NCBI GenBank assembly: GCA_037481655.1
Contig: JBBFLF010000014.1
Coordinates: forward strand, 1-64,000
Length of the DNA: 64,000 nt
Source: Desulfobaccales bacterium
GTDB lineage: Bacteria > Desulfobacterota > Desulfobaccia > Desulfobaccales > 0-14-0-80-60-11
Direction: 5' to 3'
Shown: in pieces, positions 6,218 through 61,259 of the stretch
Position numbering within the stretch: the first letter of the stretch is position 1
Layout of the letters: the number at the start of each line of letters is the position of its first letter
The notes under the pieces: model-generated
Told to the model about the DNA's origin: nothing
What the model saw: the letters and a program-made list of their open reading frames with translations, nothing else
Databases searched by the model: none
Translations under genes and position numbers: made by a program

Positions 6218-6535
6218 GTCCGTCCCTTTCCTTTCCCGCTTCTTAGCCTTATGTTGAGACCAAGGGGCCCCCGCCTCTCCCACAAAGTCCTCCCCCGCCG
6301 CCCCCCCCAGGGCTCAGGGAGGGGGCCAGGAGACACCCTTTTTTCGGCCTTTTCTCGGCTATTCTCATCAGCCCGATTTTAGAGGAAAATGGGGCTAAGG
6401 GGTTTGGAGCTTCACAAAATTCGGTTTTCGGCACTCTAAGCCTTAGGGGTTCTGCGGCCAGGGTTGCCAGTTTTTCGGCCCCCCGCCCCCGGCTCGACGC
6501 CGCCCGTTGCCAGGTCCATCATGCCGCGCGGGGAT
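6218..6535. other. Divergent intergenic region, no gene seen
   Basis: This 318-bp gap separates the divergent LOG and M48 genes, so it should hold both promoters, but no confident -35/-10 pair stands out. It contains C-rich and G-rich tracts (6280-6335) that can pair imperfectly and look like a worn copy of the hairpin element found at 7435, 9555 and 61119. Short open frames here have no coding character. Confidence 0.4.
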
Positions 6536-7417: not shown

Positions 7418-7434
7418 TCAGCAGGCAAGATGAT

Positions 7435-7568
7435 TTGAGGGGAGGGCCGGGGGACCGGTGGTCCCCCGCCCTCCCCTCAAGCACCCCACCCAACCCCCTT
7501 TAAGGGGTTGGGGGAGAGGGTCTGGGAGAGGGGGCAGGGGTTCCCCGACCCCTGGCCCCCTCTCCCAG
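7435..7568. repeat. Three-hairpin palindromic element, copy 1
   Basis: Three consecutive inverted repeats fill the gap between the convergent M48 and selB genes. Hairpin A is 7435-7480 (21-bp arms with one bulged base). Hairpin B is 7489-7512 (CCCAACCCC and GGGGTTGGG around CTTTAA). Hairpin C is 7522-7568 (about 20-bp arms). The same order and similar sequences recur at 9555 and 61119. It may serve as a bidirectional transcription stop here. It could be a REP/BIME-like or MITE-like family. Confidence 0.8.
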
Positions 7569-9490: not shown

Positions 9491-9554
9491 ATGATCGCCT
9501 GTCAGGGCCGCAAGGGCCCCAAAGTGGAATTCAATATCGGCGCAAATTAGTGGT

Positions 9555-9684
9555 TGGGAGAGGGGGCCGGGGGTTATGGATACCTGCCCCTCTCCCAGGC
9601 CCTCCTCCCGAACCCCTGGCAGGGGGTGGGGTGGGGTGTTTGAGGGGAGGCGGGGGACCCACCGGTCCCCGGCCCTTCCCTCAA
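9555..9684. repeat. Three-hairpin palindromic element, copy 2
   Basis: This copy is inverted in order relative to copy 1. A GGGAGAGGGG...CCCCTCTCCC hairpin (9555-9598) comes first, then a short AACCCC...GGGG centre (about 9611-9625), then a TTGAGGGGAGG...CCTTCCCTCAA hairpin (9640-9684). It lies between selB and the RNase G gene, which are both on the minus strand, and ends two bases from the RNase G stop codon, where it could form a 3' transcript end. Confidence 0.75.
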
Positions 9685-9685
9685 G

Positions 9686-14610: not shown

Positions 14611-15065
14611 TGCCCCTGTAAACCCTGGGCCCCCAGAGAGGCCGGTGGATTGTAGTCTAACTCGGAGAATTCCCTCCCCGTTCCCTCTCCACCCCGGCAA
14701 CATGGGAAAATAGAGGGAACGGACCTCGCTTCCCCCAAAAAAGAAGAAGTGGGGAGGGGAGGAGGAGGAGGGGAAGGTGGGGGGTCTTAAAGCCCCCGGC
14801 CTTTCCCCCAGGAAATCTTTCTAACACTGTCAATATAAATGACCAGCGTGCCTGTGACAAGCCATGCGACCTGGAGGGTCAAGGGAGGCCGCCTGCGAGG
14901 CAGGGGGCGGAAAGGCCCTGATGACCAAAAAGTCTGGATTTTTACCCCTGATTGTTTGCATAATAAAATTATCCTCTCTTTTTGTCCCATCCATCGCGAA
15001 TTTAGGAGCCGGCTGCGGCCAGAGCAAAGCCTAAGGAGCCCGTAGCCGCTCACCCGGGAGGCGCC
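14611..15065. other. Divergent intergenic region with G-rich hairpin
   Basis: The region separates hisA from the glucan/trehalose operon and should carry promoters for both. About 14773-14813 can fold as GGGGAAGG...CCTTTCCCC with a TCTTAAAG loop, a degraded relative of the three-hairpin elements. An AT-rich patch at 14940-15000 is the likeliest promoter site for the operon, but no clear boxes are visible. Open frames here look like chance. Confidence 0.4.
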
Positions 15066-61118: not shown

Positions 61119-61241
61119 CTGAGGGAGGGGACCAGGGGCCGCAGGCCCCTGCCCCCTCCCTCAGCCTCCCTCCCCCAACCCCTTAAAGGGTTGGGAGGGG
61201 GGTGGGGGAGGGCAGGGAACGGTGTTCCCTGGCCCTCCCCC
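61119..61241. repeat. Three-hairpin palindromic element, copy 3
   Basis: Three inverted repeats occupy the gap between tyrS and the nitroreductase. The first is CTGAGGGAGGGG...CCCCTCCCTCAG (61119-61164). The second is a CCCAACCCC/GGGTTGGG hairpin with CTTAAA at its centre (about 61174-61195). The third is GGGGGAGGGCAGGGAAC...GTTCCCTGGCCCTCCCCC (61204-61241). The order and central hairpin match copy 1 at 7435. Here both neighbours are on the minus strand. Confidence 0.78.
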
Positions 61242-61259
61242 ACATCCTGCTTCGCCTCC

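Follow-up and report, generated by a model that had tools for sequence, protein, structure and literature searches.

A probable REPIN/BIME-like family of palindromic repeats in a Desulfobaccales genome

Results

Three copies of one palindromic element in the window

The window, which is the whole stretch of 64,000 nucleotides that was analysed, carries palindromic DNA at three intergenic sites, and these were confirmed by matches to model R1 to be copies of one element of about 134 bp. The architecture originally proposed, of two long hairpins with a short one between them, also held, including the central CCCAACCCC/GGGGTTGGG pairing in copies 1 and 3. The features, with neighbouring genes assigned by Pfam, are as follows.

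7434 to 7568, plus strand: copy 1, full element (Y hairpin, central hairpin, Z hairpin), model R1 144 bits, E=3.8e-27, fold z=-9.3; in the spacer where the convergent genes for an M48 peptidase and selB meet
7435 to 7480, plus strand: Y hairpin of copy 1, with a bulged C in its 5' arm (pair counts, fold)
7489 to 7512, plus strand: central hairpin of copy 1, CCCAACCCC / GGGGTTGGG, made of two heads facing one another (fold, half analysis)
7522 to 7568, plus strand: Z hairpin of copy 1, inverse to Y, with a bulged G in its 3' arm (pair counts, fold)
9554 to 9685, minus strand: copy 2, full but worn, reversed, model R1 71.7 bits; flanked by the end of an RNase E/G gene and by the selB start
14677 to 14812, minus strand: worn copy, its Y half recognisable at 14730-14810, model R1 28.9 bits, E=2e-4, profile E=8e-6
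61119 to 61245, minus strand: copy 3, full, second subfamily, reversed, model R1 113.2 bits; a nitroreductase gene ends on one side of it and a class I (W/Y) tRNA synthetase gene, probably tyrS, starts on the other

Folding z-scores against dinucleotide shuffles were -9.3, -2.6 and -8.3 for copies 1, 2 and 3 respectively, copy 2 being the most worn of the three. The position of the bulged bases shows that copies 2 and 3 are inverted with respect to copy 1, which the original prediction had missed. Two worn relatives had also been proposed, of which 14773-14813 falls in the worn copy listed above, while 6280-6335 was rejected, as neither the profile nor the model matched it and its fold was unremarkable (z=-0.55). 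Searching the window against Rfam at gathering score returned two tRNAs and no match to the element; sub-threshold matches to GC-rich hairpins under permissive settings, mostly of miRNA type, were taken as chance.

The element is made of two facing halves and is present in many copies

When oriented, the element consists of a Y hairpin (47 nt, with a bulged C; T-GAGGGGAGGG-c-CGGGGGAG..loop), two G-rich heads which face each other in a central stretch (ACTCCCCTCCCAACCCCC-TTTAA-GGGGTTGGGGGAGAGGG), and a Z hairpin (47 nt, with a bulged base; T-GGGAGAGGGGG-CAGGGG..loop..CCCCTG-g-CCCCC), and a second subfamily carries the arms TGGGGGAGGGCCAGGGA and GGGGGTAAGGG. Each half is thus a G-rich head (AAGGGGTTGGGGGAGAGGG-type) joined to a hairpin of some 47 nt with one bulged base, and it is probable that this half is the basic unit, the usual element being a head-to-head heterodimer of one Y and one Z half. 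A likeness between the Z arm and the P. fluorescens GI REP (GTGGGAGGGGGC) appeared, from the letters, to be one of low complexity.

The host genome (2.87 Mb) was found to hold at least 150 full-length copies as well as solo halves, this being the number of full-length matches to a covariance model built from 53 copies. Full-length matches were also obtained by blastn with copy 1, at 87-93% identity, which extends the likeness beyond low-complexity G/C runs, and dozens of full-length copies were among the matches listed for copies 1 and 3 (the best 40 candidates per search being scored). In a 443-kb sample (contigs C1 and C9 and the window), 62 profile matches were found, from which head-to-head pairing gave 30 dimers; this extrapolates to about 190 full elements genome-wide, a figure that is slightly biased because C9 was picked for its tandem copies. 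A low-complexity artefact was rejected, since the pairing and the arrangement of parts hold over the full length and slid controls fail. Among the 150 best model matches, about 13 fall at the ends of contigs (C1, C2, C5, C18, C28, C31, C33, C35, C36, C37, C41, C46 and C48), suggesting that the repeat probably breaks the host assembly and that its copy number is underestimated; in practical terms it probably breaks assemblies across the host's order.

A dimer was taken to be two halves in head-to-head arrangement; by this definition 28 of the 30 were Y-Z and 2 were Z-Z, and Y-Z accounted for 26 of 27 short-linker dimers. The 26 solo halves (21 Z and 5 Y) start at the central loop, and they score lower than paired halves (medians of 37.2 vs 50.1 bits, p=0.01). 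Some solo Z halves are intact, however, and so the dimer may not be the sole active unit.

In long-linker forms the Y and Z halves are separated by a further palindrome whose sequence varies. Many of the best matches in one related genome (G006) are of this kind, which is also present in three more (G010, G013 and G014), with examples at L209, L212, L214, L225 and L228 in relatives and at L055:1389-1566 and L017:1557-1720 in the host's own genome; the extra palindrome has a recurring core like AAGGCGGGGCC..GGCCCCGCCTT in which pairing is retained.

Pairing and covariation in the stems

Across 53 distinct copies, 97.1% of cells in the paired columns were paired. Two-sided changes were seen in 21 pairs (203 cells, vs about 21 one-sided), a result equalled in none of 500 shuffles and compared with 2-9 pairs in slid controls, although these cells are non-independent events because two subfamilies account for part of the two-sided signal and the copies were chosen as best matches. 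G-U or one-sided states are few in the stems. Two options had been proposed, selection on the structure or copying of each arm as a palindrome. The covariation itself is genuine, and the two-sided excess suits arm copying or a substrate of single-stranded DNA. Template switching is known to homogenise the arms of inverted repeats at the DNA level (PMC8604942, PMC7202029), and covariation alone is therefore no proof of an RNA function.

The bulged base has a conserved position, at column 14 in Y and column 134 in Z, which could be fixed because the adjoining pair covaries (C-G to T-A); its place in the 5' arm of Y and the 3' arm of Z means that the two hairpins are inversely oriented. The outermost pair of both hairpins varies freely between T-A, G-C and C-G (and A-T in Y) but is still paired in 70-72% of copies, vs 33% expected, and pairing stops sharply there. 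On either side of each stem the flanking bases differ between copies, with no conserved tag such as GTAG or near variants like GTGG.

The suggestion that these are REP/BIME-like units is supported by this anatomy, of two inverse imperfect palindromes that face one another with one bulged base each, and by their high copy number and intergenic sites; solo halves and tandem clusters (see below) back it further.

Distribution of the element and the search for a mover

Of the 29 genomes searched from the host's order, 25 carried the element. Outside the order, 285 genomes sampled from the phylum gave no match, the best two candidates per genome being scored there. Taken with its anatomy, this makes it probable that we are dealing with a high-copy, non-autonomous, REPIN/BIME-like family of mobile palindromic repeats, confined among the searched genomes to one order.

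RAYT transposases are thought to spread and maintain REPINs, and movement by a RAYT had been suggested for this family also, but the Y1_Tnp domain (PF01797) had no match in the host genome or in two congeners (G000, G001 and G002), with an E. coli control positive. It was likewise without a match in G011, G022 and G023, and all six of these genomes carry the element. Conversely, four genomes (G024, G026, G027 and G028) have Y1 genes and no match to the element model, so that within the order the distribution of Y1 transposases does not follow that of the element. The surroundings of 38 Y1 loci of relatives, 103 kb in all (mostly from the host's order, with some from other families and a few that overlap), yielded a single half-element, which lies about 950 bp from the gene. 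A RAYT protein search of six genomes, also without a match, had no positive control and was given no weight. On these grounds the mover in the host genus is, in our judgement, probably not a recognisable RAYT. Many genomes of the family have several divergent Y1/RAYT-like genes (L197-L204, L236-L255), which show no association with the element.

It is tentatively suggested, at rather less than even chances, that REPIN-like palindromes persist throughout the order without a cognate RAYT, by way of an unrecognised nuclease or of replication-repair (hairpin template switching), with arms renewed as palindromes; if so, REPIN spread would be uncoupled from Y1 transposases.

An unlikely alternative to the reading favoured here is that a cognate RAYT spread the element in the classical REP/BIME manner and that its gene was then lost from the host genus. 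The inverted pairs of bulged palindromes, high copy number, intergenic sites and tandem clusters would all be expected of such a family, many relatives of the host have Y1 genes, and there is precedent for loss, as REPtrons are reported to have been lost in many E. coli strains (PMC3733652). Against this, the lack of a Y1_Tnp match extends beyond the three congeners to three further carriers of the element, and the GTAG tag is absent. REPs typically adjoin their RAYT, which the relatives' Y1 loci, with their single half-element, do not bear out.

Turnover between species and tandem clusters

Syntenic regions of the two congeners (85.6% and 88.4% identity) were compared with the host. Of 8 comparisons of orthologous spacers, 6 showed no counterpart to the intact host copy and 2 showed a worn one; one spacer (C1:144321-144496) measures 174 bp in the host vs 17 and 41 bp in the congeners. 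As intact copies are mostly missing or worn at the matching sites, the family turns over, on evidence that is between-species only. Worn copies share sites more often, in 4 of 17 and 5 of 11 cases vs 5 of 74 and 2 of 38 for element-free spacers. At 85-88% identity the congeners are too diverged for clean empty sites, from which an exact insertion junction could be taken, to be readable.

Worn or different GC-rich hairpins occupy the selB spacers of relatives (L081 and L082) that match copies 1 and 2, a possible hint that old sites are renewed, and different, worn hairpins are sometimes carried by other orthologous spacers too. Site-specific renewal, or a function at the site, would account for such hairpins as well.

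Tandem duplications of 279-304 bp, comprising the element and adjoining DNA, were found on two contigs, with duplicated intervening DNA on both (C1 and C9), and a third contig (C41) has two copies at similar spacing.

C1:81335-81755, C9:121728-122468 and C41:8524-8935, host genome (G000): tandem clusters of two or three copies, 279-304 bp apart

Tandem clusters that include host flanks have been described for REPINs (PMC3116915).

Genomic placement

Genes in the 443-kb sample were called with a simple codon-model gene caller. None of 61 elements lay inside a gene, and at least 35 of 72 neighbouring gene 3' ends were within 17 bp of an element or overlapped it. Divergent spacers, making up 18% of spacer length, held 5 elements and convergent spacers, making up 13%, held 16; in tandem spacers there was no preference in orientation (21 vs 19).

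Very stable hairpins on both strands, so often within 17 bp of a gene 3' end and sometimes matched by other hairpins in orthologous spacers, could be functional 3'-end structures, acting as mRNA stabilisers or bidirectional transcription stops under selection with their spread being secondary. We regard this as improbable, since a U-tract follows the hairpin at only 7 of 106 ends, orientation is unbiased, the same gene ends in congeners mostly lack intact copies, and G-U and one-sided states are few, unlike typical RNA helices; purging near starts and promoters is enough to account for the placement.

The short length, intergenic sites and ends resembling inverted repeats would suit a MITE mobilised by an ordinary DDE transposase, encoded by an insertion sequence that has the same ends. 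This is very improbable, as no direct repeats of 2-8 bp that would mark a target-site duplication were found above shuffles at the flanks of 53 copies, and as the element has solo halves, several linker forms and three internal hairpins instead of simple terminal repeats.

Discussion

In the REPIN-like reading that we favour, recognition would take place on the folded single strand of the element, probably while the DNA is replicating, and a trans-acting nuclease would copy or insert the element at new intergenic sites. Insertions in genes, start regions and promoters would be purged, leaving survivors just after stop codons and in convergent spacers, and old copies would decay as fresh ones arise elsewhere. 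The mover may be another enzyme, a host repair route or an enzyme recently lost. Counting against this reading are that no mover was found and that some solo Z halves are intact.

The element has the anatomy and behaviour of REPINs/BIMEs. Like the REPINs of Pseudomonas fluorescens (Bertels and Rainey 2011, PMC3116915) it has two inverted palindromic halves with a short spacer, is extragenic and high in copy number, has dimers better conserved than solo halves and forms tandem clusters with host flanks; unlike them it is conserved throughout and not in 16-mers only, has Y and Z halves that differ, is without a RAYT, and has a form in relatives with an extra palindromic linker. With the Y and Z REPs of the E. 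coli REP/BIME system (PMC8266576) it shares pairs of inverse imperfect palindromes, a conserved stem bulge, intergenic sites and mosaic linkers, but its stems are longer, it has no GTAG tag, and a RAYT is absent in the host genus and not neighboured by the element in relatives. It is not classed as a GTAG REP because both the tag and an association with RAYT were looked for and neither was found. The CGTC REPs (Di Nocera et al. 2013, PMC3733652), high-copy palindromes which are often dimers and flank no transposase gene, are a precedent for such repeats without a dedicated transposase, although the element consensus has no CGTC tag and differs in sequence and size. ERIC/RU-1 and BOX repeats are alike by description in being about 130-150 bp, intergenic and folded. 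We know of no established mover for either, and ERIC, a single long palindrome, and BOX, with its variable number of boxB units, are both unlike the three-hairpin element. No description of this three-hairpin family was found in the literature searched, coverage of which was partial.

The family is large, structurally clean and order-specific, and the element and Y1 transposases are uncoupled in related genomes both with and without Y1, so that the question of what moves REPs that have no RAYT becomes testable. With its strongly two-sided covariation and few one-sided states, the family could also serve to test whether selection or copying maintains the arms of palindromes. Each half, at 7435-7568 in the window and in all copies, always has four or more runs of at least three G on one strand, and G-quadruplex formation is therefore predicted to be possible.
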